A stretch of 26,657 bases of DNA, taken from the NCBI GenBank assembly GCA_002712305.1, contig PATE01000092.1, forward strand, positions 1 through 26,657. The letters are read 5' to 3'. Positions 5,456 to 23,090 of this stretch are shown piece after piece (positions within the stretch are counted from its first letter, which is position 1; each line of letters opens with the position of its first letter). A program made the translations under genes and the position numbers. Source of the stretch: Gemmatimonadota bacterium. Lineage in GTDB: Bacteria; Latescibacterota; UBA2968; UBA8231. The notes under the pieces were generated by a model. That model was not told the origin of the DNA. It did no database searches and saw only the letters and a program-made list of their open reading frames with translations.

Positions 5456-6792
5456 GTGCCGACCTCATTCCGTTCACGACCGGCGGGTCGATACTGGCTG
5501 CCACTGCCATGAATATCGACGACTCGCTCGGTATCGATTCCATGATCTCGCTGCAGGATCTCCTCCAATCGCTCGAGAATATCCGGTGTGAGGAGATGCT
5601 CGACCTCGTCGGCGGGTCGATCGACGTGGTCGGCGCTCAGAATGTCGCGATAGACAAGGTAGTGTTCCCACAAACGATGGGACTTCACGACGAAGGTGCC
5701 TTCGGCCAAACCCTGTGCCGTTGCCTGCACGTGCCCATCTCTGCAATCCACAAGATGGAGACGCCGCAAGCGACGCGCTTCACCGGCGACACGACGGCGT
5801 TCCCAGCCAAGTTCCTGCACCAGTTCGTCCACGCGAAAACGGGTCGCATTGTCGGAGCGTTCCTGCAATACGACCAGTGCTCGCAGGAGATGATGGCGGC
5901 GCTCTCGTAGTACATTAGAACGCTGTCGTCGCCATCGCGCCAGCAACCCACGCCGGGGCGCCAGCAACCCGGACAGGACAAACAGACCTGTCGCCACCAG
6001 CACCATGACCGGACCGGTCGGCACTCGAGGTGCCTGGGCGCTGAGGAAAGTACCCGACGCGCCCGAGAGACCGCCGATGAATGCAGCCAGCACGACCATC
6101 ACGTGCAGCCGTTCCGTCCAAAAGCGCGCTGCCACGGCAGGCGTGATCAGCATGGCCGCAATGAGGACGACCCCCACTGCCTGCAGACCCACCATGACGG
6201 TCAACACGATGAGTCCCATGAGCGCGAGATCCACACGCTGCAGAGAATAGCCGAGAGACTGCAGGAATTTCGGATCGAAGATCAGGGCCTTGAATTCTTT
6301 GTACAGCAAGAGGACGACGACTATGATAAGCAGACTCATCACCGACATGACGCGTACGTCGTCTTCCACCATCGATGCGGCCTGACCAAAGAGAAACTTA
6401 TCCAGCCCCGCTTGATTGCCGACCAGACTCCGCTGGATATGGGTCAGCAGAACGATACCGATCCCAAAAAAGACGGTGAGCACGATTCCGATGGCTGCAT
6501 CCGCCTTGATGCGGGTCCGCGTGGTGATGAACTGAATCAGGAGCACACCGAGCACACCGGTACAGGTGGCGCCACTGATGAGCACAGGCAGCGATTTACT
6601 GCCCGTCCACAGAAAGGCGAGGGCCACTCCCGGCAGCGCCGCGTGGGCAAGCGCGTCCCCCATGAGCGAGCGTCGCCGCAGGACCGCGAAACTGCCGAGG
6701 ACACCGCCCGTTGCGCCGATCAGGAGTGAGCCGAACAGGACGGAGCGAACCGTCGCATCGTGCAGGTGCAGAACATGGAGGAAATCAAACAC
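5452..6792 (-). CDS. troC: Metal ABC transporter permease fused to DtxR-like domain (TroC-like)
   Basis: The 446-aa protein begins with an ABC-3 type permease of about 280 residues with the conserved loop GDALAHAALPGVALAFLW and eight or nine hydrophobic segments. After a basic linker (LLARWRRQRSNVLRERR) comes a winged helix (about 305-355) and a DtxR-like dimerisation segment with SHRLWEHYL and DEVEHLL. The His, Glu and Glu-His positions used as metal ligands in DtxR proteins are kept, so this domain may sense cytosolic metal and gate transport. The gene starts 10 nt after the ATPase stop and overlaps the second permease by 4 nt. Fusions of this kind are known in several phyla, but their role is not well settled. 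Confidence 0.92.
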   Translation of the reverse strand: MFDFLHVLHLHDATVRSVLFGSLLIGATGGVLGSFAVLRRRSLMGDALAHAALPGVALAFLWTGSKSLPVLISGATCTGVLGVLLIQFITTRTRIKADAAIGIVLTVFFGIGIVLLTHIQRSLVGNQAGLDKFLFGQAASMVEDDVRVMSVMSLLIIVVVLLLYKEFKALIFDPKFLQSLGYSLQRVDLALMGLIVLTVMVGLQAVGVVLIAAMLITPAVAARFWTERLHVMVVLAAFIGGLSGASGTFLSAQAPRVPTGPVMVLVATGLFVLSGLLAPRRGLLARWRRQRSNVLRERRHHLLRALVVLQERSDNATRFRVDELVQELGWERRRVAGEARRLRRLHLVDCRDGHVQATAQGLAEGTFVVKSHRLWEHYLVYRDILSADHVDRPADEVEHLLTPDILERLEEILQRDHGIDTERVVDIHGSGSQYRPAGRERNEVGT

Positions 6793-8771: not shown

Positions 8772-8861
8772 GCACTTGCTAAGACACGATTACTTGGCGT
8801 GCTTATAGAGAATGCAGCGTCCAGGAATCACGTCCCTTTCTTGGTAGCCGGAGGTCCGTCG

Positions 8862-9533
8862 GTGCTCAGTGAAGCCGTTCAAGACTACCTGAAATCGATC
8901 TACAAGCTCTCCCATGCGTCGCAGGCAGGAGAGATGGTCACCACTTCTCTCATCGCCGAACGCATGCAGGTTTCGGCGGCTTCGGCGACAAACATGATCA
9001 AGAAGCTGGCTGAGCTCCGACTCCTCGACCATACGCCCTATCAAGGTGTGGAGCTGACACCAACAGGCGTGAAGATGGCCCTGGAGATCGTTCGCCATCA
9101 TCGGCTCCTGGAGTTGTATCTGCGTCAATCTCTGGGTTATGACTGGGATCAGGTCGACGCGGAAGCCGACCGCCTCGAACACGCCATCTCAGAGGATTTC
9201 GAAGACCGCATCGATCGAGCCCTCGGTTTTCCGACGGTGGGGGCCCATGGCGAGCCCATCCCGTCCAAGGAGGGCGATATCGCCGTCCACAACTATCGCC
9301 GACTGGCTGACATGGCTGAGGGCGAGCGCTGCTGGATCCGGCAGGTCAGCGATCGAGATCCTGCCCTGCTGCGCTACCTTGATGAGCACGGGCTGATTCT
9401 TGGGACCGAGGTCGAGATCAGAGAGCGAGCGCCATTCCGGGGTCCGCTGCGAATCGCCATCGGTGTCGATCGCGAACACCATCTTGGCCTCGAAGCAGCC
9501 GAGCAGATCTATGTGGAGATCGCTGCCGCGTGA
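8862..9533 (+). CDS. mntR: DtxR/MntR-family metal-dependent repressor
   Basis: I place the start at the GTG at 8862 because GGAGGT lies six bases upstream. A longer frame from a GTG at 8799 lacks such a site. The resulting 223 aa contain a winged helix (AVQDYLKSIYKL, then IAERMQVSAASATNMIKKLA), a dimerisation and metal-binding domain (RHHRLLELYL, DRLEHAISEDFEDRID, GEPIPSKEG), and a C-terminal FeoA/SH3-like domain (about residue 150 on). The Asp in QDYL sits where MntR has a metal-ligand Asp and DtxR has Met, which leans towards Mn specificity. It is divergent from the troABCD operon and probably represses it when metal is plentiful. Confidence 0.92.
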   Translation: MLSEAVQDYLKSIYKLSHASQAGEMVTTSLIAERMQVSAASATNMIKKLAELRLLDHTPYQGVELTPTGVKMALEIVRHHRLLELYLRQSLGYDWDQVDAEADRLEHAISEDFEDRIDRALGFPTVGAHGEPIPSKEGDIAVHNYRRLADMAEGERCWIRQVSDRDPALLRYLDEHGLILGTEVEIRERAPFRGPLRIAIGVDREHHLGLEAAEQIYVEIAAA

Positions 9534-9554
9534 AGCGACCTTGGCATCGAATGT

Positions 9555-10232
9555 TCAGTCGCCGGTGGTATGACCGTTCGTCTTGACCCGGCGCTGCCGA
9601 TCCTGACGTTTTTGCATCGTGGGGAGCAGGTCATCCAGCAGGTCAGCCAGATACTGCAAGCGCGCGTTTTCGCTCAGCAATTCTAGCAGCGCTTGCCGAC
9701 GAGAGGGTTCCAGGCCGATTCTTTGGGCGATGACGAAGGCGTCGCCAACGTCGAGGGCATCGAGAGACTGTTCCGGATCATCGTCGTGCGAGCCGTAACC
9801 GAGACTACCCATGTCCTGGGCGGCCAGATCGGTCAGTTGTCCCAATCGCTCACGAACCAGCAGCCGGATTGAGGGGTCGACGGGCCCGACCTCTTCGTCA
9901 TCGAGGCGCTCCACGTGAGCCATGAGATATGATCTTTCATGTTCTCGGACTTCGAGGGTCCGATAGCGCCAGACCGCACGACAGACGATGTCGAACGTGC
10001 CATTGCTATACTGCCGTGTCACCTTCATCACTTGAACAGCGCAACCGACGGGAGCGACGTTCCCTTCGTGTTCGAAACTGAGACCAAAGGGCTCATATTC
10101 TCCCTCCCCTTCGGCACAGCAGTCGGCGATCATCTCCTTGTAACGATCTTCGAAGATGTGCAGGGGCAGCGCCTGATCCGGAAACACGACGATGCCCAGA
10201 GGGAACAGGGGGAGTATTTGTCCATGGTCCAT
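9555..10232 (-). CDS. LON substrate-binding domain protein
   Basis: This 225-aa protein is a stand-alone LON N-terminal domain. The opening LPLFPLGIVVFPDQALPLHI and the following FEDRYKEMI are the family hallmark, followed by GTFDIVCRAVWRYR. The C-terminal half is helical and ends in a basic, disordered tail. No ATPase or protease domain is present, so it is not Lon itself. Such solitary proteins (PF02190) are common but their role is poorly known; substrate or polypeptide binding is the usual guess. It converges on mntR with 21 bp between stops and is divergent from the small HNH gene. Confidence 0.88.
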   Translation of the reverse strand: MDHGQILPLFPLGIVVFPDQALPLHIFEDRYKEMIADCCAEGEGEYEPFGLSFEHEGNVAPVGCAVQVMKVTRQYSNGTFDIVCRAVWRYRTLEVREHERSYLMAHVERLDDEEVGPVDPSIRLLVRERLGQLTDLAAQDMGSLGYGSHDDDPEQSLDALDVGDAFVIAQRIGLEPSRRQALLELLSENARLQYLADLLDDLLPTMQKRQDRQRRVKTNGHTTGD

Positions 10233-10284
10233 GAATGGGCCTGCGATCAGCGATGCGAAAGCGCCAGAGGCGCGAGGAACTGCC

Positions 10285-10593
10285 GTGGAAGAGTACTACA
10301 CACCTGCCTCTGACGAGCATATCGCTCGAGAGCGCCATCAGGCACGCGATCTGCGTCAATCACAGTGGTGGAAACGTCAGCTGGCAGAAGGTCGTTGTCA
10401 CTACTGTCGCCAGGAGTTCTCGCCCAGAGAGCTGACGATGGACCACGTCGTGCCCGTCGCACGAGGAGGGTATTCCCGGCGCGGCAACGTAGTGCCCTGC
10501 TGCAAAGACTGCAACAACCAGAAGCAGAGCATGCTGCCCGTCGAGTGGACGCAGTATCTCGAGGGCTTGGGCAAGCCAGCAGACAGTGAATGA
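10285..10593 (+). CDS. Small HNH endonuclease
   Basis: I choose the GTG at 10285, giving 102 aa, because GAGGA lies about six bases upstream and the earlier in-frame ATG at 10231 overlaps the divergent LON-domain gene. The core is a classic HNH with structural zinc: CHYC (38-41), the catalytic segment MDHVVPVARGG with Asp53-His54, RGNVVPCCKDC, and the NNQK segment. Such free-standing HNH proteins (HNH_5 type) occur in many genomes with no known partner. Nothing nearby points to restriction, phage or an intron, so its biological role is open. Confidence 0.88.
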   Translation: MEEYYTPASDEHIARERHQARDLRQSQWWKRQLAEGRCHYCRQEFSPRELTMDHVVPVARGGYSRRGNVVPCCKDCNNQKQSMLPVEWTQYLEGLGKPADSE

Positions 10594-10842: not shown

Positions 10843-11784
10843 TTAGTGATACGACAGGATCGGCTCGATCGCGGCACGCACTTCGGCCGATACCGCCTCA
10901 GGCACGGGGGGGTTGAAGGGCCCCCCGGCACCACCCTCGACATCTTCCCATGTCCCAAGACGAAGGGCCTCCACGACGGCGGAATAGTTGTACTGCCGTC
11001 CGTTGCGAAAGCGGATTTCCTCGAGGGGAGCCATGAGGGCTTCTATCTTGTTGGACTGATCGTAGTCTCCCTGGCGCTGGGCGTTGTTGATCGCGTCGGA
11101 AGCCTTCGCGAAGCCGATATTGATGCCCGATGTGTGACCCTTCGCTCCGGCCACGGCTGGAGCCGTGCTGCGGTCTCCCACACCCCAGATCACCGTACCG
11201 GCGTCGGATCGAACCTGGTCGACGATCCCCTTCACATCATCAGGGGTCGTTCCGACCTTGATCCCCAAAAATCGCGGTGAATCATTAACGAGGCGGACGG
11301 CCGTGTCAGCCTCACGATCCTGACGCAGGTAATACAGAAACCGCGCACCTGTCGAACTGAGCCGCTCACCCAGGGCCATGTACCCCTGATAGATGCCTTC
11401 GGGATCGGCCACGCCCGTGAGGGGCATCAGCAAAAATGCGTCGGGTGGGTGGGTGAATTGTGCCTGGCCCTCGATCAGTCGCTCAGCCTCAGCGAGTGGA
11501 TTTGGCGCGATGCCCGCGATGAAGAGGCCACGACCTGCAATCCGATTCGTGGTGAACTCCATCAGTCGCATCTGCTCATCTGCGGCGATGTGGTGGATGA
11601 GGCTTGTGCCGGCCACACACAGAACCCGCCGTCGGCCGCCCTCCAACTCATTGGTCGACAGGAGATAGTCGATGTTCTTGCTATGGCCGTCGTAGTCAAT
11701 AGACCCCTCGGCGGTGAATGGAACGGGCGGGATAGAAATCACCGTATCGAGGGCATCCAGCAATTCTTCGTTGCTCAGCGGCAT
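10843..11784 (-). CDS. DHDPS/NAL superfamily lyase, divergent member
   Basis: Starting at the ATG at 11784 gives 313 aa; the frame is open to 11868 but those residues do not look like the family. The beta/alpha-barrel begins VPFTAEGSIDYDGHSKNIDY. The Schiff-base Lys is probably Lys176 in FLGIKVGTT, and a Tyr pair lies at 151-152 (FLYYL), replacing the usual YNxP. The superfamily covers dihydrodipicolinate synthase, N-acetylneuraminate lyase, keto-deoxy-sugar aldolases or dehydratases, and hydroxyproline-pathway enzymes. It is far from the aldolase encoded at 13209-14408. A candidate promoter and an upstream hairpin suggest transcription apart from the BMC operon, though on the same strand. 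The substrate is not identifiable. Confidence 0.8.
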   Translation of the reverse strand: MPLSNEELLDALDTVISIPPVPFTAEGSIDYDGHSKNIDYLLSTNELEGGRRRVLCVAGTSLIHHIAADEQMRLMEFTTNRIAGRGLFIAGIAPNPLAEAERLIEGQAQFTHPPDAFLLMPLTGVADPEGIYQGYMALGERLSSTGARFLYYLRQDREADTAVRLVNDSPRFLGIKVGTTPDDVKGIVDQVRSDAGTVIWGVGDRSTAPAVAGAKGHTSGINIGFAKASDAINNAQRQGDYDQSNKIEALMAPLEEIRFRNGRQYNYSAVVEALRLGTWEDVEGGAGGPFNPPVPEAVSAEVRAAIEPILSYH

Positions 11785-11838
11785 GGCAGATCGTAGCTCC
11801 GGTGGGTGTGATGGGGGGCTCACTTGAGGGTGTGTTGC

Positions 11839-11868
11839 AGCATACGGGTGACGACTGCAGACTGTCAA
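11839..11868 (-). promoter_or_regulatory. Candidate promoter for second DHDPS-family gene
   Basis: On the minus strand TTGACA (11863-11868) is separated by 18 bases from TATGCT (11839-11844). It lies 55 bp before the chosen start at 11784 and after a strong hairpin, so a new transcription unit could begin here. Confidence 0.5.
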
Positions 11869-11915
11869 TCTCTTACTCCGTCTTTCAACGCCCGGACGAC
11901 TGATTTCCGGGGCTT

Positions 11916-11941
11916 CGATCGTCCCTGGCCTGGGACGATCG
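11916..11941 (-). terminator. Strong hairpin after the FAD oxidase gene
   Basis: CGATCGTCCC (11916-11925) and GGGACGATCG (11932-11941) form a perfect 10-bp stem with a 6-base loop, 15 bp past the oxidase stop. No U-tract follows in the minus-strand direction, so it may be an atypical terminator, an mRNA-stabilising stem or a protein-binding site. Confidence 0.5.
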
Positions 11942-11956
11942 CTGAACCAGCACCCT

Positions 11957-13051
11957 TCAGCGTCGGATACGGAAGGGGCTCAGGTCGATCCCTGGTTCGC
12001 CTTCAACGATCCACCGCGCCAGGGCCTGGCCCGTGGCAGGCGCCATGAGCACACCGTTCTTGTAGTGACCGGTGGCCAGGAAGATGTCAGCATCCGCGAT
12101 TCGATCGATCACGGGACGACCACGGCGGGGCTTGGGACGCAGCCCGCCCTCATGCGCTACGACGGTCCCACCTGTACCCAGCAGCCGCTCGACCACCCCC
12201 ATCAGTTGGACACGAGCTTCCTCCGACGTCGCCGCGGGAATCCCTTCGCCCACGACGGGTTCATTGGTCGCCCCTACAGCGATCGTCCCTTCAGGGGTCG
12301 GCACCATGTGATATCCAGCCCAATGCACAATCCCGGACACGGTCGCCGAGGTCTGCAGCCTCAGACTTTGACCAGGTGCAGCACGCACGACGCTCGAGGG
12401 CAGGCCAAGATCCGCGAGCAGGCCATGAGAGTGGGCCCCGGCACACAGAATGATGGCATCCGCTTCAAGCCGCTCCCCCGTCGTCAGCAGGGCGGCGGGA
12501 TTCCCCGCCATGTCGAATCCACGCACACAACCGGTTTGGTAGCGGGCTCCTCGTTGCTCAGCGCCGCTCCACAGAGCGCGTGAGAGCCGCTGCGGATCGA
12601 CCTGATGATCCGCTGGCCAGAGGCACGCCGCCGACGGGGCGCTGACCAGATCAGGCTCTCGTGCGGCAACTTGCTCGGATGTCAACCACTGGCAATACGC
12701 CCCACGCTGCTGCAAGCGCTGCACGTGATCGTGAAGCGTCGTCGACTCCTGGTCGTCGTAGGCGACCTCCACGCCACCACAGGCCGTCCAACCGACATCG
12801 ATGCCCGTTTCTTGAACGAGTTCAGCAGCCAAAGACTGGTACAGGGCGTGGCTGACCCGATAGAAATGCGAAAGGGCGTCCAGCGACGTTGTCGGCCGGG
12901 TGAGCACGCCGAGACTTGCCCGGGTGGGTGGAGACAGGACCTCGACGGGGTCCTCGTCGATGACGAGGATGTGGGACGTGAACCGGGAGAGGTAGTAGGC
13001 GACGCTGCGACCGATGAGGCCGCCACCGACGATGAGGCAGGAGATGGGCAT
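11957..13051 (-). CDS. thiO: ThiO-like FAD-dependent amino-acid oxidase
   Basis: The ATG at 13051 (364 aa) puts the FAD dinucleotide motif VGGGLIG right at the N-terminus; a longer frame reaches 13093. Also seen are the DAO-type AIILCAGAHS and the C-terminal signature ATGHYKNGVLMAPATG, which closely resembles glycine oxidase ThiO, as does the FRIRR end. ThiO oxidises glycine to the imine or glyoxylate with release of H2O2, normally for thiamine synthesis. No thiamine gene is in the window. Its place between two DHDPS-family genes, next to a microcompartment operon, suggests a catabolic amine or imino-acid oxidase instead. A 157-bp gap separates it from the aldolase, so co-transcription is uncertain. 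Confidence 0.82.
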   Translation of the reverse strand: MPISCLIVGGGLIGRSVAYYLSRFTSHILVIDEDPVEVLSPPTRASLGVLTRPTTSLDALSHFYRVSHALYQSLAAELVQETGIDVGWTACGGVEVAYDDQESTTLHDHVQRLQQRGAYCQWLTSEQVAAREPDLVSAPSAACLWPADHQVDPQRLSRALWSGAEQRGARYQTGCVRGFDMAGNPAALLTTGERLEADAIILCAGAHSHGLLADLGLPSSVVRAAPGQSLRLQTSATVSGIVHWAGYHMVPTPEGTIAVGATNEPVVGEGIPAATSEEARVQLMGVVERLLGTGGTVVAHEGGLRPKPRRGRPVIDRIADADIFLATGHYKNGVLMAPATGQALARWIVEGEPGIDLSPFRIRR

Positions 13052-13208
13052 GGTCCTACGATCTGTGCAGGACGGGTTCAAGCTACCGGGCACTCTCGGG
13101 GCCCTGAAAGCGTATCAGCGAAGGCTCGAAAGCGCGACGACGAGAGGACGTCTACCGCCGCCGCCGCACGGCTCTGGCTGCGGCGCGCCTTCTACTGTGC
13201 CGCACTGG

Positions 13209-14408
13209 TTAGCTGCGCCGCACCAGGGGTGGTAGGTGCGTCACGGGACAGCCCTGCGCGCCGGTCACTGAGAATCCCATGTCGCTGAGAACACAACTGA
13301 TTTCCAACTCGAGTTCCTGCAGGTAGTCGCGTTCCTCGCTGCTCATGACCGTGCGAGCGGGGCCCACGTCGAAACCTCGCACTGCGACACCGGTCTTGAA
13401 GCCCTCCGGAAAGTTGACCCCCAACAACATCAGATTGATCAGCGGGAGGATGCGATACTGGAGTTCGCGGGCGCGATCGAGATCCATGGCCAGTGTTCGA
13501 TCATACAGTTCGACGATGATCTCCGGAATGATCCCGGACGTGGCAATGGTGCCCCCATTTGCGCCCATGATGATCGATGGCAGCAGAATCTCTTCGCAAC
13601 CATTGAGGACGACGTAGTCTGGACGGTGTTTCCGCAGGCGCTGCATCGTGTTGATGATTCGTGGCAGGTCGCGGCTTGAATCCTTGGTCCCGAAGATCTT
13701 GTCGAAGGCCAGCAACTCCTCCATGATCTCCAGAGGCAACTCCTGTGTGAACTGCGGGATGTTGTACAACAGGATATCGAGGGGCGAATTGCGCGCAATC
13801 TCGGCGAAATACTCGTAGAGACTCGTATCGGAAATCTTATAGTAGTACGGTGGAACCAGACTGATCGCATCGGCCCCCAGGTCGGCGTAGTACTGGGCCA
13901 TCTGCAACACGTCGCGCACATTCGCTTCGCTGGCGCCGGCCAGAATAGGCACACGACCTTGATTCACGTCGGCGATCAGACGCACGACATCGCGACGCTC
14001 TTCACTGGACAACCGCACGAACTCCCCCGTGCTGCCGTTGGGATACAGCCCGTGGATACCAGCGTCGATGAGCCAGGCGATGTAGCGCTCCATCTCTTTG
14101 TAGTTGATGCTCCCCGCCTCATCGTAAATCACGATGTTGGGCGTGAAGATGCCGCTGAATCGACGGCTCCGTTCGGTGCCACCCGGCGCCTCTGGCACAC
14201 CTGCCGGCTGCTGCACACTCGCCTGCGGTGCCGGGGCTGAAGATCCATGGGCCGTACGCTTGACCACTTGAATCTGTCGAGCGCGGAGCAGATCGAGAGC
14301 AGACGGGGTCAGCTTCGCCCGTGGGCAGATCTCGACTTGGCGCTCGTTACCAGAGAGGCGTGTCTCCAGTGTCTGGGCAGTGATCAGACTGTCGTCGATT
14401 CGGACCAT
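13209..14408 (-). CDS. DHDPS/NAL-family aldolase with EutT-N-like leader domain, BMC-associated
   Basis: Residues 1-50 form a small domain (DDSLITAQTLETRL, then AKLTPSALDLLRARQIQVVK). It matches the start of the Cys-rich protein encoded at 16199-16702 and resembles the N-terminus of EutT. A Pro/Ala/Ser-rich linker (52-80) leads to a full DHDPS-fold barrel with GSTGEF (125-130), the YNIP Tyr215, and the Schiff-base Lys242 in GTKDSS. The enzyme should make or break a C-C bond between pyruvate and an aldehyde. It starts 30 nt after the four-domain shell gene and is the best candidate for the aldehyde-producing signature enzyme of the compartment, with the leader as a possible cargo tag. Biosynthetic DapA is unlikely because of the leader and context. 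Substrate unknown. Confidence 0.88.
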   Translation of the reverse strand: MVRIDDSLITAQTLETRLSGNERQVEICPRAKLTPSALDLLRARQIQVVKRTAHGSSAPAPQASVQQPAGVPEAPGGTERSRRFSGIFTPNIVIYDEAGSINYKEMERYIAWLIDAGIHGLYPNGSTGEFVRLSSEERRDVVRLIADVNQGRVPILAGASEANVRDVLQMAQYYADLGADAISLVPPYYYKISDTSLYEYFAEIARNSPLDILLYNIPQFTQELPLEIMEELLAFDKIFGTKDSSRDLPRIINTMQRLRKHRPDYVVLNGCEEILLPSIIMGANGGTIATSGIIPEIIVELYDRTLAMDLDRARELQYRILPLINLMLLGVNFPEGFKTGVAVRGFDVGPARTVMSSEERDYLQELELEISCVLSDMGFSVTGAQGCPVTHLPPLVRRS

Positions 14409-14438: not shown

Positions 14439-15611
14439 CTAGGCATGGGACAGACGATCGGTCACTTGCGAATAAGGAAGGGCGATGACGTGACGGGCGA
14501 CGAGCTCGCCGTGCCGCTGAGCGGCTCGCCCTCCCACATCGAGGGCGTTGTTCACGGCACCCAGTTCGCCACGAATGACTGCGGCGGTCAAGAAGTACCC
14601 GACCTTGTAGCGCCCCTCATACGAGACCTCCGAACTCTTCAACATCGCGTCGACGGCACTGACCAGACCCACCGTTGTGCGTGTTTCCAACAGGCCGAGA
14701 GCCTCACCTGTGGGGTGTGTCGTTGCCGGGGGGGGATCGGCGAAGGCGGCCACAACCTGTGGATCGGGATTTGTGATCAGGGCCTCACCATTGTTCTCGG
14801 CCACCTGTGCCATGTCTTCGGACGCGCTGGATACGGCCGCCTTGACGTCATCGAGAGCACCCGAGGCGATCGTGGCGACGCGCCCCCCACTACCTATGGT
14901 CAAACGCACGATCTCGACAGCGGCCTCTTTCACCATTCGGTCCGCCCCGTGAACGGCTCCCATGTATCCGGTGGTCTCCACGAGCCCGAGTGCTCCGACG
15001 CGGCGCTCGGTTCCTGCCTTGGCAGGCGGTAGCAGGTGGAACACATCCGGTTCCGGCTGTTCGAGCACGAGCTGACCCACGGGTTCACCAAACGTGGCGG
15101 CTGATTCAGCACCGGCGGCGATGGCGGTCTCCACGTCGCCGACGGAGCCACGAATCACAGCGTGCACGAGGGCGCCGCCGATGAATGTCCAGCCGAGCAG
15201 CTCGACATCCGCCGCCTTGACCATGCGATCGACAGCGATGGCGAGAGGAGCCACACCCATGGTCTCGAGCCAACCTAGTGCCTCGCCTGAAGTCGAATCG
15301 ATGTCGACGGCGGTGAGCGTGTTCTGCGCATGGGGCATGGTCGCGATCACTGCCGCTTCGGGGCGAGGCAGAATCGTCATCGTAATCAGTTCGCCTCCTT
15401 GCCGCTCAGCCGCCTGCCGACCTGCATGCATGGCGCTCTGCACGGCCGCCGTTGTCCCCTCGATCACGATCGTCAACCAGCCCGAACCGATGCCGTGCCG
15501 ACCCTGAAGTCGGATATCTGCAGCCTTGCCCATGCTGTCGAGGGCGGCAGCGAGGCTCGTCACGCCGCGACACTCGAAAATTCCTAGGGCGCTCATACCC
15601 GCGTCAGCCAT
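14439..15611 (-). CDS. Shell protein with four tandem BMC domains
   Basis: The ATG at 15611 shares its A with the TGA of the preceding shell gene, which fixes the start and gives 390 aa. Four copies of the BMC (PF00936) fold follow one another: about 6-86 (MSALGIFECRG... GIGSG), 109-188 (EALGWLETMGV), 205-287 (VGALGLVETTGY... IGSGG) and 302-381 (EALGLLETRTT... KVGYF). Each has the ALGxxE strand, the AxDxMxKxAxV helix, a pore-loop equivalent and the GxxxxVxxA helix. Linkers are rich in Pro, Ala and acidic residues. Normal shell proteins carry one (BMC-H) or two (BMC-T) domains. I see no stop or frameshift that would split it, so this looks like a genuine fusion of two BMC-T units. Confidence 0.92.
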   Translation of the reverse strand: MADAGMSALGIFECRGVTSLAAALDSMGKAADIRLQGRHGIGSGWLTIVIEGTTAAVQSAMHAGRQAAERQGGELITMTILPRPEAAVIATMPHAQNTLTAVDIDSTSGEALGWLETMGVAPLAIAVDRMVKAADVELLGWTFIGGALVHAVIRGSVGDVETAIAAGAESAATFGEPVGQLVLEQPEPDVFHLLPPAKAGTERRVGALGLVETTGYMGAVHGADRMVKEAAVEIVRLTIGSGGRVATIASGALDDVKAAVSSASEDMAQVAENNGEALITNPDPQVVAAFADPPPATTHPTGEALGLLETRTTVGLVSAVDAMLKSSEVSYEGRYKVGYFLTAAVIRGELGAVNNALDVGGRAAQRHGELVARHVIALPYSQVTDRLSHA

Positions 15612-16195
15612 CAGTTTCCACCCATTTTGGGCGTTTGCCCGAAAGCCTGAAGTGTGCTGAGTTGTGGTTGAGACAGGACGGCTGTGCCCATAAACCACTC
15701 ACTCGACGCCAAGGCATCGCGGGTGCGATCAATGGCACGTTCTACGGCGCCGAGTTCACCGGTAACCAGTGAACACACGACCCGATTGTGCACGGTGAGC
15801 ACGTTGATGAGATCGACACTCGCCTCTTTGATCATCCGGTCGTTGTTCTCGATGTGGACGCCGTAGCCTCGTGTTTCCACCAGCCCCAGGGCATCGGCTT
15901 CTGCGATCGAGTCATCGGCGGTGTCTGCACGGGCACTGATGAAGTTGTCACAGGCTGATTCGGGTTGGAGCAGAGAGTGACTCTCGACGTGGCCCGTCAC
16001 GTCGGCGGCAGCCGACGTCCCTGCACGCAGCGCGGACTCGATATCGCCGACGGCACCTCGAAAGAAGACGGTGGTGAACCCGCCGATCGATTCCCAACCA
16101 TCAAGATCAACCGAGGCTGCCTTACAAGCGGCATCGGCAGCGACAATAATCCCCGCCACACCTTCTACTTCGATCATCCCAAGTGCTCTTGCCAT
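15611..16195 (-). CDS. Tandem-domain BMC-T shell protein (divergent type)
   Basis: This 194-aa protein has two BMC domains: about 1-78 (ALGMIEVEGVAGIIVAADAA, pore region ESIGGF) and about 98-178 (DALGLVETRGYGVHIENNDR, pore region LTVHNR). They are joined by an acidic linker of about 18 residues, and a short tail ends in GGN. BMC-T proteins trimerise into pseudohexamers whose central pore can be gated. It differs clearly from the two near-identical BMC-T proteins in the same operon and is closer in style to the adjacent four-domain protein. It lies 3 nt after the Cys-rich gene and overlaps the next start, so coupled translation is likely. Confidence 0.92.
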   Translation of the reverse strand: MARALGMIEVEGVAGIIVAADAACKAASVDLDGWESIGGFTTVFFRGAVGDIESALRAGTSAAADVTGHVESHSLLQPESACDNFISARADTADDSIAEADALGLVETRGYGVHIENNDRMIKEASVDLINVLTVHNRVVCSLVTGELGAVERAIDRTRDALASSEWFMGTAVLSQPQLSTLQAFGQTPKMGGN

Positions 16196-16198
16196 CTG

Positions 16199-16702
16199 CT
16201 ACTGTTCCAATCGTGACATGATCTCGTCCGTCAATCGCTGAACGAGGGATTCTAGTTCCGCGTCGTTGCCAGGAACCGAGCAGTTCTCGCAGTCGCACCC
16301 CGGGGCACCATTTCGGCCGGCCTTGGCGCAGGCGTCGCAACAGGCTGGCTCGACGAAACCAGATCCAAACTCTTCATCGCGACACCCATAGGCCCGATCG
16401 GGGTGATCACAGCGCCCATGATAGAGCAGCCCACCTTCAGCACCCGGTGGCAGGATCTCCTGAATCGGCGTACCCCCAGATTGCCCCGCATAACCCGCCT
16501 GTCCCGCATTGCCTGTTCCTCCCGGGCCGGGCGACGCACTTGCACCTTCCTCGACGACGACGACGCTGTGGAGGCGTAGATAGTCGCGGGCGGAAGGAGT
16601 GATGATCGCCCCCGGTACGAGCCGTACAGCCCCTTCACCCTGATGCCGCTGGGCAAGAAGGGGCTCGGTGATCAAGGTCTCGTCGAGGGTGAGAATCTGC
16701 AT
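16199..16702 (-). CDS. EutT-N-like Cys-rich BMC-associated protein
   Basis: The 167-aa protein has three parts. Residues 1-52 (DETLITEPLLAQRH, then GAIITPSARDYLRLHSVVVV) resemble the N-terminal domain of cobalamin adenosyltransferase EutT and the leader of the neighbouring aldolase. A Gly-rich linker (55-90) leads to a cluster of eight Cys: C98, C107, C121, C122, C125, C136, C138 and C141, with nearby His95 and His100. It includes the CCxxC seen in EutT's metal site. The C-terminus (about 147-167, ELESLVQRLTDEIMSRLE) is an amphipathic helix like an encapsulation peptide. The adenosyltransferase domain is absent. I infer a metal or Fe-S protein packed inside the compartment; its function is unknown. 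Confidence 0.8.
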   Translation of the reverse strand: MQILTLDETLITEPLLAQRHQGEGAVRLVPGAIITPSARDYLRLHSVVVVEEGASASPGPGGTGNAGQAGYAGQSGGTPIQEILPPGAEGGLLYHGRCDHPDRAYGCRDEEFGSGFVEPACCDACAKAGRNGAPGCDCENCSVPGNDAELESLVQRLTDEIMSRLEQ

Positions 16703-16744: not shown

Positions 16745-17011
16745 CTAAAAACCCGCGTGGGTCTTGAGTGTGGTGATCGGGCGGGCAATGACATGTACGG
16801 AGCGCAAGTCGCCCACTCGCTGGGCCGACTCGGCCCCCGCGTCCACAGCGGCTTTCACGGCCGCCACATCTCCTTCGATGTGGACGCAGATCAGACCACC
16901 CCCGGCACGCCTTTGACCGGCATAACTCACATCGGCCGTCTTCAGCATCGCATCCAGAGCTTCCACGGCTCCGATGAGACCTCGTGTCTCGATCATACCC
17001 AACGCCGCCAT
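16745..17011 (-). CDS. BMC-H hexameric shell protein (copy 2)
   Basis: This 88-aa single-domain PF00936 protein begins MAALGMIETRGLIGAVEALD and ends shortly after VHVIARP. It forms hexagonal tiles of the shell facet. It is about 82% identical by my hand count to the BMC-H encoded at 20077-20343. Most changes cluster in the pore loop (RRAGGG here against KRVGSG there) and the following strand, so the two hexamers should have different pores. It lies 5 nt after a BMC-T gene, the same T-H order as the other copy. Confidence 0.95.
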   Translation of the reverse strand: MAALGMIETRGLIGAVEALDAMLKTADVSYAGQRRAGGGLICVHIEGDVAAVKAAVDAGAESAQRVGDLRSVHVIARPITTLKTHAGF

Positions 17012-17016
17012 ATCGC

Positions 17017-17574
17017 TTAGCTCAGGAAGAGCCGCACGGCGGCGGGTGCGGGACGAGGGATCACGTGGCGTGCGACAACGTCACCCACGCGCTCAGCAGC
17101 TTCAGCGCCAGCGGCGATGGCGGATTGGACCGAACCCACGTCGCCGGTGGCCAACACCGTGATGTATCCGCCGCCGATCTCCTGGGTGCGGACAACTTCG
17201 ACCTCGGCTGCCTTCTCCATCGCGTCTGCAGCTTCGATCGCTGCGGTGGCACCACGGGTCTCTACCATCCCAAGGGCACGGACCTCGACGGCGTCTGCCT
17301 GACCGACGCGCGGTACGATCGCCGATAGACCTTCGTGGGGCCTAGGAATCACGTGGACTCCATTCACTTCAACAATCTTCGCCGCCGATGTCGCTCCGGC
17401 GTCGACGGAGGACTTCACAGCCGCCACATCGCCTTCGCAAAAGACGGTCACGAAGCCGGACCCGACCTTGTCCCACCCTAGCAACTCGACATTGGCCGCC
17501 TTCGCCATCGCATCAGCACTGACGATGACGCCTGTGAGCCCTGTTGTTTCGACCATTCCTACAGCTTGAGCCAT
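17017..17574 (-). CDS. BMC-T shell protein (copy 2)
   Basis: The 185-aa protein has two BMC domains, about 1-80 (QAVGMVETTGLTGVI, pore KVGSG) and about 98-178 (RALGMVETRGATAAIEAAD, pore EIGGG). They are joined by a short linker after RPHEGLSAIVP. Three copies form a pseudohexamer in the shell. It is about 80% identical by hand count to the BMC-T encoded at 20390-20947, with the linker as the most variable part. It follows PduL and precedes a BMC-H gene. Confidence 0.95.
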   Translation of the reverse strand: MAQAVGMVETTGLTGVIVSADAMAKAANVELLGWDKVGSGFVTVFCEGDVAAVKSSVDAGATSAAKIVEVNGVHVIPRPHEGLSAIVPRVGQADAVEVRALGMVETRGATAAIEAADAMEKAAEVEVVRTQEIGGGYITVLATGDVGSVQSAIAAGAEAAERVGDVVARHVIPRPAPAAVRLFLS

Positions 17575-17623: not shown

Positions 17624-18289
17624 TCAGTGTGTACTCAGCGTGACTTCGCGTGCATTGACCAGATCCACGGCGTTGCCTTCATCCGTGTCCAAGTGCACTT
17701 CCAGTTTCGATTCAGGGGTGATTCGCACCACCACGTCATCCAGGACTCCCCCCTGCTCGCCTTCGACGACCAGACGCATCCGGTCCCCTTCGCCAACGCC
17801 GTGAGCCTGGGCCTCATCTGGACTCATGTGTACGTGGCGTGCTGCGCGGATCACCCCTTCCGGAATCTCCAACCCCCCGTGAGGACCCACCAGAAAACAG
17901 CCTGGCGAACCGGCCGTATTCCCCGAGATTCGGACGGGCGCGTCGATCCCCAGAAATCGGGCGTCACTGAAGGCCAGTTCCACCTGAGGCGCGTCTCGCA
18001 ATGGCCCCAGGACGCGCAGATTGGAGATCATCTGCTTCCGGGGACCGAAGATCGTTACCGTCTGATCCGAGGCGAAGGCCCCGGCCTGATAAAGGGGTTT
18101 CATCACCGTCAGCTTGGCATCAGAGCCAAACAGGATCTTCAGGGTTCCATCGTCCAGATGGCAGTGACGAGCCGAGATGTTGGCGATCAGGCGGGCACTG
18201 CCCTGCCCCCGCATGGAGCCACCCGGGCGGTGCCGAAGGAGTGCCGCGCGCACCATCTGTTCCACTGCGGCCCGTGAAACCGTCGTCAT
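17624..18289 (-). CDS. pduL: PduL phosphotransacylase
   Basis: This 221-aa PduL enzyme converts acyl-CoA plus phosphate to acyl-phosphate and recycles CoA inside the compartment. Two zinc motifs are present: SARHCHL (His42, His44) and AARHVHMSPDEA (His152, His154), with FGPRKQM and VLGPLR between them. Residues 5-20 (SRAAVEQMVRAALLRH) form an amphipathic helix of the encapsulation-peptide kind, followed by a Gly-rich linker, which marks it as luminal cargo. It sits between a BMC-P and a BMC-T gene. Together with the aldehyde dehydrogenase it forms the common metabolosome core. Confidence 0.95.
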   Translation of the reverse strand: MTTVSRAAVEQMVRAALLRHRPGGSMRGQGSARLIANISARHCHLDDGTLKILFGSDAKLTVMKPLYQAGAFASDQTVTIFGPRKQMISNLRVLGPLRDAPQVELAFSDARFLGIDAPVRISGNTAGSPGCFLVGPHGGLEIPEGVIRAARHVHMSPDEAQAHGVGEGDRMRLVVEGEQGGVLDDVVVRITPESKLEVHLDTDEGNAVDLVNAREVTLSTH

Positions 18290-18301: not shown

Positions 18302-18616
18302 CTAATCTTCATCGTGGACGATGCCCAGATCCATGGATTGCCCATCCGCATTGAGCGCATCGAGAATCCCAACGATCACCGCGTCGGTCGGCACTGCCCC
18401 CATCTCGGGTGCGCTACGGGCCGAGGACCCCATCACCGTGATGACCACTTCACCCGTCCCGGCACCGACCGCGTCTAGACAGACCATCTGTCGACCCGTG
18501 CGCTGCAAACCTTCGGGTCGCACCGTGACCACCTCTACGAGCAGAAGCTTGCGGCCTCCGAGCGTATCCAGCTTGGCGGTGGAAACAACGCTTCCCTTCA
18601 CTTCAGCAAGTAACAT
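18302..18616 (-). CDS. BMC-P pentameric vertex protein (EutN/CcmL family)
   Basis: This 104-aa EutN/CcmL-type protein shows LLAEVKGSVVSTAKLDTLGG, LLLVEVV, the CLDAVGAGTGEVV turn and VMGSSARSA, then VGILDAL. Pentamers of this family cap the shell vertices. It lies between the aldehyde dehydrogenase and PduL genes, apart from the three clustered BMC-P genes, and is most like the one encoded at 21519-21818. Confidence 0.94.
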   Translation of the reverse strand: MLLAEVKGSVVSTAKLDTLGGRKLLLVEVVTVRPEGLQRTGRQMVCLDAVGAGTGEVVITVMGSSARSAPEMGAVPTDAVIVGILDALNADGQSMDLGIVHDED

Positions 18617-18622
18617 GGCGAC

Positions 18623-20056
18623 TCAGGTGATGCGGAAGTAGTCGATGAGTGCGCAACGTCGACGACGCGTGAAGGTGCGTGCCGTCGTCATCCCTTCACC
18701 CGTAGGTCCTGCGATCGAGTAGGTCGCGTATCCCTCTCCACCGACACCGAGCCCCGCGAAAGAAGGGCCATTCTTCACGAAAACCGTCGTATCTACAGCC
18801 CGCGCCATGTTGTGCATGTTCTCGATGTTTCGCGAGTGAATGACCGCCGTGTGCCGATACCCATGTTCTGACTCGATGGCCGCCCGGATCCCCTCATCGA
18901 CGTTGCGGACCCGCACGATGGGCAGGAAGGGCATCATCTGCTCGACTTCGACGAAGGGGTGATGGGCGTCGGTCTCACCGATCAGCACGCGGAGTTCATC
19001 GTCGAGGGTCAGACCAATCGCGGCACCGAGGACGTTGGCATTGCGCCCGACGAAATCACGATTCACGTGAGGTTGGCCATCGTCGCCCTTTGGAAGAGCG
19101 ACCTCCGTCAATGCCTGAATCTGCGCTCGGTCGAGCTCAACGGCACTGTAGGCGAGCATTTCGCGTTTCAGCTCGTCGGCGACGGAATCGACGACAAAGC
19201 ACTGCTTCTCTCCGATGCACAGGACATTGTTGTCGAAGGCGGCACCGTCGATGATGTCCCGCGCCGCTCTCTTGATATCGGCGGTCTCATCCACGAGGAC
19301 GGGTGGATTCCCCGGACCTGCTGCGATGGCCTTCTTGCCGCTTCGCATGGCGGCCCGCGCCACGGCTGCGCCACCGGTGACCAGCACAAGACGCACGGTT
19401 CGATGGTGGAACAGCTGGTCTGCCGTCTCAATCGTCGGCTCTGACATGGCGGCAATCAGATTGGCTGGCCCCCCCGCTTTGACGATGGCTGCATTGAGCA
19501 ACTGCACGGCGTGGGCGGAGACCGACTTTGCGCCGGGGTGTGGATTCACAACCACCGAATTCCCGGCGGCGATGATGCCGATGGCATTGTTGACGAGGGT
19601 AGGTACGGGATGGGTCGACGGCGTGACGGCGCAGACGACACCGTAGGGGGCCATCTCTTCGACGGTCAGCCCATGATCCCCCGTCCACGAAACGGACTCG
19701 AGATCTTCAACTCCCGGTGTCAGGTCCGCCGCCAGGGCGTGCTTCTTGAGTTTGTCCTCAAGCCGTCCGATCCCGGTCTCTTCAAGGGCCATTCGCGAAA
19801 AGGTCTCGGCGTGATCCCGGGTGGTCTGGCGGATCGCCTCGATGATCTGCTTGCGCTGTTCAAGGGTGAGGCCGAGAAGCTCTTGCTGAGCACGATCTGC
19901 GGCGGCGACTGCCTCGTCGACGGAGGTGAAAAGTCCCACACCCGAGCCGCGACGGCCTGAGCCTGCGGCCGACCCAGCGGCCGCAGGCGTACGAACAACC
20001 CGCTGTACGACCTCTTCGACAATCTGTCGAACGCGATCTTCGTTGACGGTGTTCAC
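18623..20056 (-). CDS. CoA-acylating aldehyde dehydrogenase (EutE/PduP type)
   Basis: The 477-aa enzyme starts with an encapsulation-like amphipathic helix (EDRVRQIVEEVVQRVV) and an Ala/Gly-rich linker to about residue 40. The acylating aldehyde dehydrogenase fold follows, with APYGVVCAVTPSTHPVPT (136-153), GGAAVARAAM and the catalytic Cys280 in FDNNVLCIGEKQ. It should oxidise an aldehyde with NAD+ and CoA to acyl-CoA, which PduL then converts. The aldehyde chain length cannot be read from sequence. No alcohol dehydrogenase for NAD recycling is present in the window. It sits between the first T-H shell pair and a BMC-P gene. Confidence 0.95.
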   Translation of the reverse strand: MNTVNEDRVRQIVEEVVQRVVRTPAAAGSAAGSGRRGSGVGLFTSVDEAVAAADRAQQELLGLTLEQRKQIIEAIRQTTRDHAETFSRMALEETGIGRLEDKLKKHALAADLTPGVEDLESVSWTGDHGLTVEEMAPYGVVCAVTPSTHPVPTLVNNAIGIIAAGNSVVVNPHPGAKSVSAHAVQLLNAAIVKAGGPANLIAAMSEPTIETADQLFHHRTVRLVLVTGGAAVARAAMRSGKKAIAAGPGNPPVLVDETADIKRAARDIIDGAAFDNNVLCIGEKQCFVVDSVADELKREMLAYSAVELDRAQIQALTEVALPKGDDGQPHVNRDFVGRNANVLGAAIGLTLDDELRVLIGETDAHHPFVEVEQMMPFLPIVRVRNVDEGIRAAIESEHGYRHTAVIHSRNIENMHNMARAVDTTVFVKNGPSFAGLGVGGEGYATYSIAGPTGEGMTTARTFTRRRRCALIDYFRIT

Positions 20057-20076: not shown

Positions 20077-20343
20077 CTACAGGCCGGCGCGTTCCTTCAG
20101 CGTGGCGATGGGACGCGGGATCACGTGCACCGAGCGCAGGTCACCGATACGCTGTGCTGCTTCGGCGCCGGCATCGACGGCTGCCTTCACCGCTGCTACG
20201 TCGCCTTCGACCAAAACGCTGACCATACCACTGCCCACGCGTTTCTGGCCCGCGTAGGAGACATCGGCCGTCTTGAGCATGGCGTCGAGTGCCTCGACGG
20301 CGCCCACCAAACCCCGTGTTTCGATCATTCCGAGTGCTGCCAT
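20077..20343 (-). CDS. BMC-H hexameric shell protein (copy 1)
   Basis: This 88-aa PF00936 protein begins MAALGMIETRGLVGAVEALD and carries the common pore loop KRVGSG. AGGAG lies seven bases before the ATG, so it is likely strongly translated and may be the main facet protein. Its paralogue at 16745-17011 differs at about 16 positions. Confidence 0.96.
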   Translation of the reverse strand: MAALGMIETRGLVGAVEALDAMLKTADVSYAGQKRVGSGMVSVLVEGDVAAVKAAVDAGAEAAQRIGDLRSVHVIPRPIATLKERAGL

Positions 20344-20389
20344 CTGTCTTCTCCTGTAGTCAATCCTATAATCGTTCTTTGAGGTCGTG

Positions 20390-20947
20390 TTAGCCGAGGA
20401 ACAACCGGACCGCCGAAGCGGCCGGACGTGGAATCACCAGACGCGTCACCAGGTCTCCGACGCGTTCTGCTGCTTCGGCGCCTGCAGCGACCGCTGATTG
20501 CACCGACCCCACGTCGCCCGTGACAAGGATAGAGATATAACCACCGCCGATCTCCTGGGATCGTGCCACCTCGACATCCGCCGCCTTTTCCATCGCGTCG
20601 GCTGCCTCGATGGCGCCCGTTGCGCCCTTTGTCTCGACCATACCGAGAGCGCCAACCTCTCCCACGTCAGATCCCGAAGCGACGGGTACGATGGCATCCA
20701 ATCCCGCGTGGGGTCGAGCGATCACGTGTACACCGCTCACCTCCACCACCTTTGCGGCGGAGCCCGCCGCAGCATCGACGGATGATTTCACCGCCGCCAC
20801 ATCGCCCTGACAAAACACGGTGACCATTCCTGCCCCCACCTTGTCCCAGCCTAGCAGTTCCACGTTGGCGGCCTTGGCCATCGCATCTGCACCCGCGATG
20901 ACACCTGTGAGTCCTACCGTCTCGACCATTCCTACAGCTTGAGCCAT
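20390..20947 (-). CDS. BMC-T shell protein (copy 1)
   Basis: This 185-aa two-domain shell protein has a first domain starting QAVGMVETVGLTGVIAGAD with pore KVGAG, and a second starting GALGMVETKGATGAIEAAD with pore EIGGG. It pairs with the downstream BMC-H and is paralogous to the T-H pair at 16745-17574. The first pore has Ala in place of the Ser of its paralogue. Its start lies 6 nt after the preceding BMC-P stop. Confidence 0.95.
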   Translation of the reverse strand: MAQAVGMVETVGLTGVIAGADAMAKAANVELLGWDKVGAGMVTVFCQGDVAAVKSSVDAAAGSAAKVVEVSGVHVIARPHAGLDAIVPVASGSDVGEVGALGMVETKGATGAIEAADAMEKAADVEVARSQEIGGGYISILVTGDVGSVQSAVAAGAEAAERVGDLVTRLVIPRPAASAVRLFLG

Positions 20948-20953
20948 CAGTCT

Positions 20954-21247
20954 CTACCTCTCGCTCGACGTTACGGCGCCTGGTTCTTCAAGATGAACTG
21001 TGTCTGCCCGTCCGATGACGACGGCATCCGCCGGAATCGGTGGGTCGAATGCGTTGCAGGCTTCACGGGCGACCTCGACGATGACGAGATCCTCGTCCTT
21101 CATCGCCTGCCAGGTCACGCAGACTTCTGGATCGCCGACGCCCTGCAATTGACGTCCAACGTCCTGGACCAGATGGAGCGTCTTGTCCTGCAGGGATTCG
21201 ATCGCCCGCGACAACACGACATGACCGACCACCCGACCCAGTTTCAT
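20954..21247 (-). CDS. BMC-P pentameric protein, divergent
   Basis: This 97-aa EutN/CcmL-family member opens KLGRVVGHVVLSRAIESLQD and closes with IPADAVVIGRAD. It lacks the usual DAVGAG and GSSAR turn, having instead EDLVIVEVAREACNAFDPP, so its pore and outer face should differ from the other three. It overlaps the preceding BMC-P gene by 4 nt. Similar divergent pentamers occur as second or third vertex proteins in other loci. Confidence 0.85.
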   Translation of the reverse strand: MKLGRVVGHVVLSRAIESLQDKTLHLVQDVGRQLQGVGDPEVCVTWQAMKDEDLVIVEVAREACNAFDPPIPADAVVIGRADTVHLEEPGAVTSSER

Positions 21248-21522
21248 AAGACAAGCTCTGCGACAGACTCTGCGGATGTGTCGATGATTCCGACGACGAC
21301 GCTTCGAACAGGCGGATACTCGACCCCTGTCGCTGCAGCACCCGCCGCACCCGAATCCGAGACCAGAACGACCGATCCAACACCGGCTCCGACTGCGTCG
21401 ATGGCCAACTGCAGCGGCGCATCGTCGTCACCCCGTTCATGGAGGACCAGGATCTTTCGGCGGTCCAGAGATGCGTGTTTTGCCTCTGCCACGACGTGTC
21501 CGATCACAGTAGCCTGTCTCAT
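21244..21522 (-). CDS. BMC-P pentameric protein
   Basis: This 92-aa EutN/CcmL-type protein has QATVIGHVVAEAKHASLDRR, an AIDAVGAGVGSVVLVSDSG turn and VGIIDTS near the end. The GSSAR motif is changed to SDSGAAGAAA. It overlaps the BMC-P genes on both sides by 4 nt each, so the three are translationally coupled. Confidence 0.9.
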   Translation of the reverse strand: MRQATVIGHVVAEAKHASLDRRKILVLHERGDDDAPLQLAIDAVGAGVGSVVLVSDSGAAGAAATGVEYPPVRSVVVGIIDTSAESVAELVL

Positions 21523-21818
21523 GCGACCACCGTATGGGCATGACCAAAGGCGGTCACCGTGTCGACGATACCGACGATGACGGCGTCCACAGGGGACCCT
21601 TTGTATCCGGGCGCGACACGCGCTGAGCTTCCTTGCACAATCACGACGATCTCGTCGATTCCTGCGCCGATGGCATCGACGGCCACCATATGTTTCCTCG
21701 TCTCTCCCAGTCCCTCGTCGGTTGCCGACAGCAACTCTACAAGCAGGAGCTTGCTCCCCTCGAGATTCTCGATCTTGGCGCTGGCGACGGCCGTTCCTTT
21801 TACACGTGCAAGGATCAT
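21519..21818 (-). CDS. BMC-P pentameric protein
   Basis: This 99-aa canonical EutN/CcmL protein shows ILARVKGTAVASAKIENLEG, LLLVELL, VAVDAIGAGIDEIVVIVQ, GSSARVAPGYKG and VGIVDTV. It is the first shell gene of the operon, starting 3 nt after the ispH stop, and is closest to the BMC-P encoded between AldDH and PduL. Confidence 0.94.
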   Translation of the reverse strand: MILARVKGTAVASAKIENLEGSKLLLVELLSATDEGLGETRKHMVAVDAIGAGIDEIVVIVQGSSARVAPGYKGSPVDAVIVGIVDTVTAFGHAHTVVA

Positions 21819-21821
21819 CGA

Positions 21822-23090
21822 TTACACCACATCTGCGGTGGGTTCGTGCAGAGAGAGACTGGACAACCCCGCCATGATGTCGCCCTGATCATAACCGTAG
21901 AAGGAAGCGATCTTCTCGACCACTGAATTCATCAGCACATCGGGGCAGGACGCACCCGACGTCACGGCGAGTCTCGTCGGAAGTTGCGGTCGCCACGCAT
22001 CGGTGACGGTCGTCGTCTTGGCCCCCAGATCGAAGTGACGGATCTGGTCTGGTGACAACAACTCCTCTGCACTGCTGATGAGGAAACTCGGCATGACCGT
22101 CTCGCAGATCTCCACCAGGTGGGCCGTATTTGAACTGTTATAGCCACCGACAATGACGGCTACGTCCGGTTCGGCGTCCAGCAGCGCTTTGGTCGCGTTC
22201 TGATTCCAATTGGTGGCATAACACAGCGTGTCATTCGTATCTGCGAAGTGCTCGTCGATGTGATCCTCGCCGAAACGATCTCGCATGGCCTCCCGAAGAA
22301 TGCCAGCGACCTGCTGCGTCTCTTCCGCCAGCATCGTCGTCTGATTGACAACGGCGACACGATCGAGATCGGTTGCTGGATCAAAACCTTGGGACCACTT
22401 GCCGCCAAACTCGGCGACGAAGGCATCCTGCGATGTGCGTCCCATGATGTAGTCGGCAACACGAGACGCTTCCTCCGCATCGCGCACGACGAGGGTCCGC
22501 GTATGCTGCTCGGTGTGCGAGTGAGTCGCCTGCGTCTCCTCGTGACCGAATTTCCCATGGATGATGATCGTGAACCCCTCTCGTCCTAGTTCCTCGCCAC
22601 GATCCCACACCTTGGAGACGAAGGGACACGTTGTGTCGTAGTTCTCACGGAAGGACACACTGGACGTATCCACACCACTTCGATGCAGGGACGCCTCAAT
22701 TTCAAGGGTTGTCCCAAAGGCCGGAATCAGGACCACGTCATCTCCGGATAGACTCTTCTCGGGAACCTGCCGCTGCCCATCGCTGTCGTAGAGGAACCGA
22801 ATCCCGCGCGTGCGCAGATCGTCGTTCACCAACGGATTGTGGATGATCTCGTTCACGAGGTGAATGTCACGGTCTGGATGGCGCTCGAGGGCCGAGAAGG
22901 CCATGTGGATCGCACGTTCCACGCCGAAGCAGAAACCGAAGTGGCGCGGTACCAGCACCTCGAGTTGGCCGATGGTCAGACGCGTCGGGGCAAGAGAGCG
23001 CTTGCCCTCCTCCTGACGGAAATTCTTGATCTGCTGGATGATCTCGCCGGCGTAGTGATTGGGGACGCGATCAAACTGCTTGAAGGCCAT
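21822..23090 (-). CDS. ispH: 4-hydroxy-3-methylbut-2-enyl diphosphate reductase (IspH/LytB)
   Basis: IspH is the last enzyme of the MEP pathway and reduces HMBPP to IPP and DMAPP with a [4Fe-4S] cluster. The three cluster Cys are present: Cys54 (GFCFGVERA), Cys155 (YDTTCPFVSKVW) and Cys290 (DTLCYATNWNQ). IIHGKFGHEE, VVNQTTMLAEET and YNSSNTAHL complete the active site. At 422 aa it is of the longer plant/cyanobacterial type, with an N-terminal extension (FKQFDRVPNHYAGE). The late motif reads GASCPD where many have GASAPD or GASTPD. It is the first gene of the minus-strand run leading into the shell genes, with 3 nt to the next start, which is an unusual setting for a housekeeping gene. Confidence 0.95.
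   Translation of the reverse strand: MAFKQFDRVPNHYAGEIIQQIKNFRQEEGKRSLAPTRLTIGQLEVLVPRHFGFCFGVERAIHMAFSALERHPDRDIHLVNEIIHNPLVNDDLRTRGIRFLYDSDGQRQVPEKSLSGDDVVLIPAFGTTLEIEASLHRSGVDTSSVSFRENYDTTCPFVSKVWDRGEELGREGFTIIIHGKFGHEETQATHSHTEQHTRTLVVRDAEEASRVADYIMGRTSQDAFVAEFGGKWSQGFDPATDLDRVAVVNQTTMLAEETQQVAGILREAMRDRFGEDHIDEHFADTNDTLCYATNWNQNATKALLDAEPDVAVIVGGYNSSNTAHLVEICETVMPSFLISSAEELLSPDQIRHFDLGAKTTTVTDAWRPQLPTRLAVTSGASCPDVLMNSVVEKIASFYGYDQGDIMAGLSSLSLHEPTADVV

Follow-up and report, generated by a model that had tools for sequence, protein, structure and literature searches.

The shell proteins of bacterial microcompartments that carry the PF00936 domain have been sorted into a small number of architectures. 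The 2021 catalog of more than 7,000 loci recognises six shell-protein types, with one or two domains per chain (PMC8217296). BMC-H proteins such as PduA, EutM and CsoS1A have one domain and form hexamers with six identical positions, while BMC-T(s) proteins such as PduT, HO-5812 and CcmO join two canonical, non-permuted domains in one chain and form homotrimers (PMC8217296). All facet tiles of this catalog are rings of one- or two-domain proteins, so that, as homo-oligomers, their pores have six- or three-fold symmetry. Mixed hexamers of two BMC-H proteins are on record for CcmK3/CcmK4 (title cited in PMC10710832). We analyzed here a stretch of 26,657 nucleotides from a Gemmatimonadota bacterium (contig PATE01000092.1 of assembly GCA_002712305.1; hereafter the window), in which a PduL/aldehyde dehydrogenase metabolosome locus encodes a protein with four such domains in one chain, called q4.

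A four-domain shell protein and its orthologues

A preliminary description, made from the sequence alone, had read four PF00936 repeats in one uninterrupted frame of 390 aa whose start is fixed by a TGATG overlap. This observation is confirmed. The coordinates are right, and the strand, which had not been given, is minus: translation from the ATG at 15611 to the stop at 14439 yields 390 aa, and the ATG overlaps the stop of the upstream gene in the string TGATG. The number of PF00936 hits had been set beforehand as a criterion, and a Pfam search returned four stretches. When the domains were scanned separately over the genome, each of them alone exceeded the Pfam cut-off of 24.5 bits (Table 1). 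All four domains are canonical; each matches PF00936 collinearly from position 1 and shows the canonical strand-helix order in the predicted structure, so that the circular permutation of BMC-T(sp), BMC-T(dp) and BMC-H(p) is absent.

Table 1. Features of the window (positions of the whole stretch; scores in bits).
Feature	Coordinates	Strand	Pore motif	Evidence
q4, four-domain BMC shell protein, 390 aa	14439..15611	-		PF00936 x4, 225; 24 full-length copies including this one; AlphaFold2 pLDDT 82.8, pTM 0.83
q4 domain 1 (D1)	15360..15590	-	G-[S/A]-G-W	PF00936, 69.1
q4 domain 2 (D2)	15054..15281	-	G-G-A-L	PF00936, 69.5
q4 domain 3 (D3)	14769..14993	-	[S/T]-G-G-R	PF00936, 54.0
q4 domain 4 (D4)	14481..14702	-	G-Y-[F/Y]-L	PF00936, 60.8
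d2a, divergent two-domain BMC protein, proposed ring partner of q4; its stop overlaps the ATG of q4	15611..16195	-	d2a-1, G-gap-G[F/Y]; d2a-2, H[N/D]RV	PF00936 x2; AlphaFold2 pLDDT 86.3, pTM 0.85
dapA, DHDPS-family lyase with an N-terminal extension of about 80 aa	13209..14408	-		PF00701, 202
b, conserved cysteine-rich protein of unknown family	16199..16702	-		no Pfam or NCBIfam match
h1, single-domain BMC-H	16745..17011	-		PF00936, 90
d2b, two-domain BMC protein	17017..17574	-		PF00936 x2, 167
PduL-type phosphate propanoyltransferase	17624..18289	-		PF06130, 216; NF011652 above cut-off
BMC-P pentamer protein	18302..18616	-		PF03319, 87
CoA-acylating aldehyde dehydrogenase, PduP/EutE type	18623..20056	-		NF011927, 661 (cut-off 403)
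h2, single-domain BMC-H	20077..20343	-		PF00936, 93
d2c, two-domain BMC protein	20390..20947	-		PF00936 x2, 155
BMC-P triplet, three consecutive genes	20954..21818	-		PF03319 in each, 44, 64 and 91
Two near-duplicate pairs (BMC-H + two-domain BMC protein)	16745-17574 and 20077-20947	-		
DAO-family FAD enzyme, two DHDPS-family genes and aldehyde dehydrogenase, as a set	10843-14408 and 18623-20056	-		
ispH (4-hydroxy-3-methylbut-2-enyl diphosphate reductase)	21822-23090	-		
Two metal ABC-transporter permeases	4169-6792	-		PF00950, each with PF02742 fused at the C-terminus
DtxR-type regulator	8799-9533			

We then investigated whether the gene could be an assembly join, a collapsed duplication or a chance fusion of two genes, the first two having been named in advance as grounds for rejecting it. 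The window is contig 11 of a 4.77-Mb MAG of 146 contigs that is 90.9% complete. A search of 64 genomes of its phylum identified full-length orthologues without internal stops in 23 other genomes, 46-74% identical, which belong to two families of one class; the named records are labelled mostly as Latescibacterota or Gemmatimonadota MAGs. Two of the 23 are single-contig genomes (G050 and G051), which rules out an artefact; read coverage over the gene was not checked. Two further genomes hold pieces at contig ends. It had also been asked whether orthologues are always split into two genes, and they are not regularly split: the one broken copy, in a 780-contig MAG (G063; 9342-10545 of its locus L070), has a frame break in the D3-D4 linker with the two frames (3+1) overlapping, where a sequencing error and a real fission were not told apart. 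Among close pairs, dN/dS is 0.04-0.17 overall and below 0.4 in every domain, indicating purifying selection. A recent duplication is also rejected, because orthologous positions are 60-72% identical across genomes while different positions within q4 are only 34-43% identical, so the four domains were distinct before these lineages parted.

Gene neighbourhood and the proposed two-domain partner

In the main family the gene order is conserved: ispH, BMC-P genes, two-domain BMC, BMC-H, aldehyde dehydrogenase, BMC-P, PduL, two-domain BMC, BMC-H, gene b, d2a, q4, dapA, FAD oxidoreductase and a second DHDPS-family gene. Many loci lack the first two-domain/BMC-H pair; in the window the two pairs are near-duplicates, and only some relatives have the second one. 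The CoA-acylating aldehyde dehydrogenase and the phosphotransacylase, together with the shell genes, make this an aldehyde metabolosome, whose substrate is unknown. The DAO-family FAD enzyme, the two DHDPS-family genes and the aldehyde dehydrogenase together resemble the gene set for hydroxyproline breakdown, and the nearest solved FAD enzymes are glycine oxidases. The presence of ispH next to the BMC-P genes in many of the loci is unexplained. Gene b is conserved in place in the main loci; its N-terminus looks by eye like that of dapA (LTPSA-like motif), but BLASTP did not confirm this resemblance. Elsewhere in the window, the two permeases with a fused iron-dependent-repressor metal-binding domain lie near a separate DtxR-type regulator. 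Two further single-domain BMC genes, possible satellite shell proteins, lie far from the main locus on contigs C86 and C101 of genome G000.

The gene directly upstream of q4 is d2a in all 24 intact loci, the start of q4 lying within -14 to +12 nt of the d2a stop. The two genes occur in the same genomes; in the one exception (genome G045) the contig starts inside q4. In five genomes of the second family (94-98% complete) only d2a, q4 and dapA remain together, and the whole PF00936 inventory consists of q4 (four domains), d2a (two domains) and two single domains elsewhere, so that d2a is the only other multi-domain chain. Adjacency and co-occurrence hold, however, for dapA too, which lies directly downstream of q4 wherever the contig continues, and they do not prove contact. 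The N-terminal extension of dapA, possibly a targeting domain, is present in all q4-bearing genomes, whereas the homologues in G016 and G017, two genomes that lack q4, match only from residue 77 on. In two genomes of another family of the phylum, a dapA homologue sits next to a different two-domain BMC gene whose first domain is very divergent.

Arrangement of the domains and a proposed 4 + 2 ring

The preliminary description had argued that six-fold geometry does not divide by four, and that three chains (12 domains) would make two pseudohexamers, stacked or adjacent, with the linker between domains 2 and 3 as the tether. Its interpretation was only partly supported: the class is, as far as we could find, undescribed, but the assembly model is not supported. 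The three linkers measure 19-25, 19-22 and 20-23 aa in all 24 copies, the same as inside d2a (20-23 aa) and d2b (19-22 aa), so nothing marks the D2-D3 linker as special; this uniformity fits the same neighbour-to-neighbour step each time. AlphaFold2, run with seven sequences, predicts one well-placed body rather than two lobes; we take the pTM over four domains and 390 aa to mean that their mutual placement is predicted with confidence. The argument also overlooked the coupled two-domain gene just upstream, and the double ring, in which D1-D2 would lie in one pseudohexamer and D3-D4 in the other and d2a would make its own trimer, leaves the strict pairing with d2a unexplained. In its favour, the arithmetic works, two-domain BMC-T proteins are trimers (PMC8217296), and a domain tree forced to tandem-duplication pairing (D1+D3, D2+D4) is not rejected (AU p = 0.26). 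We consider this model unlikely.

The predicted models were then compared with solved structures. D3-D4 superposes on two neighbouring domains of the synthetic Haliangium BMC-H tandem fusion (PDB 6ner) over 178 residues at 2.0 Å, and d2a over 176 residues at 2.1 Å. AlphaFold2 was trained on structures up to April 2018, before 6ner (2019), so this is not a copy of that template. Only D3-D4 of q4 has a solved two-domain match, and to a synthetic protein; the comparison returned only the best-matching pair, without coordinates, and the placement of D1-D2 and D2-D3 was not examined directly. PduT and HO-5812 do not superpose as domain pairs on the q4 or d2a models (rmsd 15-17 Å), so the step from one domain to the next seems to differ from theirs.

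Each of the six domains of q4 and d2a forms its own clade (UFBoot 99-100), with 60-72% identity within a position and 24-43% between positions. In the pore-loop columns each position keeps its own motif over 24 loci (Table 1), against GSG or GGG in the ordinary neighbours. The lysine that joins tiles is present in 24/24 at all six positions, while the arginine of the RP motif is kept mainly in D1 and D3 and is mostly replaced, commonly by Gln, in D2, D4 and both d2a domains. The domain phylogeny favoured ring-opposite sister pairs (UFBoot 82 for D1+D4, 87 for D3+d2a-2, 45 for D2+d2a-1). This is only weak support, since constrained trees were not separated by the AU test (ring pairing p = 0.47). 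A mirror-tree correlation of q4 with d2a (partial r 0.83) was no better than that with pduL (0.85) and does not single out d2a.

The most economical reading is that q4 is a facet tile of the metabolosome shell, whose four domains probably sit side by side as four positions of one pseudohexamer, and that d2a supplies the other two. One q4 plus one d2a would close a single ring in which all six positions differ, every edge keeps the tiling lysine, and the central pore is lined by six different, fixed segments. Such a tile would serve the DHDPS-family enzyme, aldehyde dehydrogenase and PduL chemistry and its intermediates as a dedicated pore or cargo-docking tile. The analysis itself establishes the four domains, their conservation, the pairing with d2a, the uniform linkers and the position-specific motifs, whereas the 1:1 stoichiometry, the ring closure, the asymmetry of the pore and the function are inferred. 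We hold this proposal with moderate confidence, and a fully desymmetrised tile that evolved naturally is slightly more likely than not; no multimer was modelled, and neither this assembly nor the double ring has been shown directly. Four domains plus two single-domain BMC-H subunits also make six. BMC-H genes are present in every q4 genome whose inventory was examined and in most main loci, and CcmK3/CcmK4 sets a precedent for mixed hexamers. In the second family, however, the BMC-H genes lie on other contigs while d2a is coupled to q4, and d2a is as divergent as the q4 domains, whereas the BMC-H look generic. This 4+1+1 ring, with d2a forming its own trimer, appears doubtful. Finally, q4 could be an open arc or scaffold, for instance an edge, seam or cargo-docking element, since four positions do not close by themselves and the gene is locked to dapA. 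This is improbable, because all four domains keep the inter-tile lysine and a normal predicted BMC fold, as expected for ring members.

Comparison with described shell proteins

By its PF00936 domains and its location in a gene cluster with BMC-P, PduL and aldehyde dehydrogenase genes, q4 belongs to the BMC shell protein superfamily, but it lacks the defining features of BMC-H, BMC-T(s) and the permuted classes. No three- or four-domain shell class appears in the 2021 catalog (PMC8217296), and literature searches for four BMC domains, for triple or quadruple BMC proteins and for DHDPS-linked BMCs found nothing, although unnamed entries with four domains may exist in UniProt and InterPro, which were not queried. 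A conserved four-domain protein coupled to a two-domain partner would be a new shell-protein class. If the 4 + 2 ring is right, it would be, as far as we could find, the first natural tile in which every position can be addressed separately, giving six individually tunable edges, an asymmetric pore for an asymmetric substrate or a single cargo-docking face, and a ready-made chassis for engineering. The genes d2a-q4-dapA also provide a marker set for an undescribed metabolosome type.

The locus shares its core enzymes and the BMC-P triplet with the metabolosomes of the SPU, HO and FRAG types (PMC8217296), and differs by the DHDPS-family enzyme and the four- and two-domain shell pair. Like the BMC-T(s) proteins, q4 joins canonical domains by linkers in one chain, and PduT matches D2-D3 by sequence, but it has four domains instead of two. 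Whether q4 forms homotrimers was not modelled, and 3 x 4 domains cannot make one ring. Against the CcmO profile NF053792 it scored 201.5 bits, below the curated cut-off of 270. The proposed tile would resemble the CcmK3/CcmK4 heterohexamers in being made of two different shell proteins, which in CcmK3/CcmK4 are separate single-domain chains. The 6ner fusion is the best structural match for D3-D4 and for d2a, but it is engineered and has two BMC-H domains. With the BMC-H hexamers PduA, EutM and CsoS1A, q4 shares the fold, the edge lysine and the pore-loop position; it differs in having four domains at four different positions, and the GSG-type loop is changed at D2, D4 and both d2a domains.
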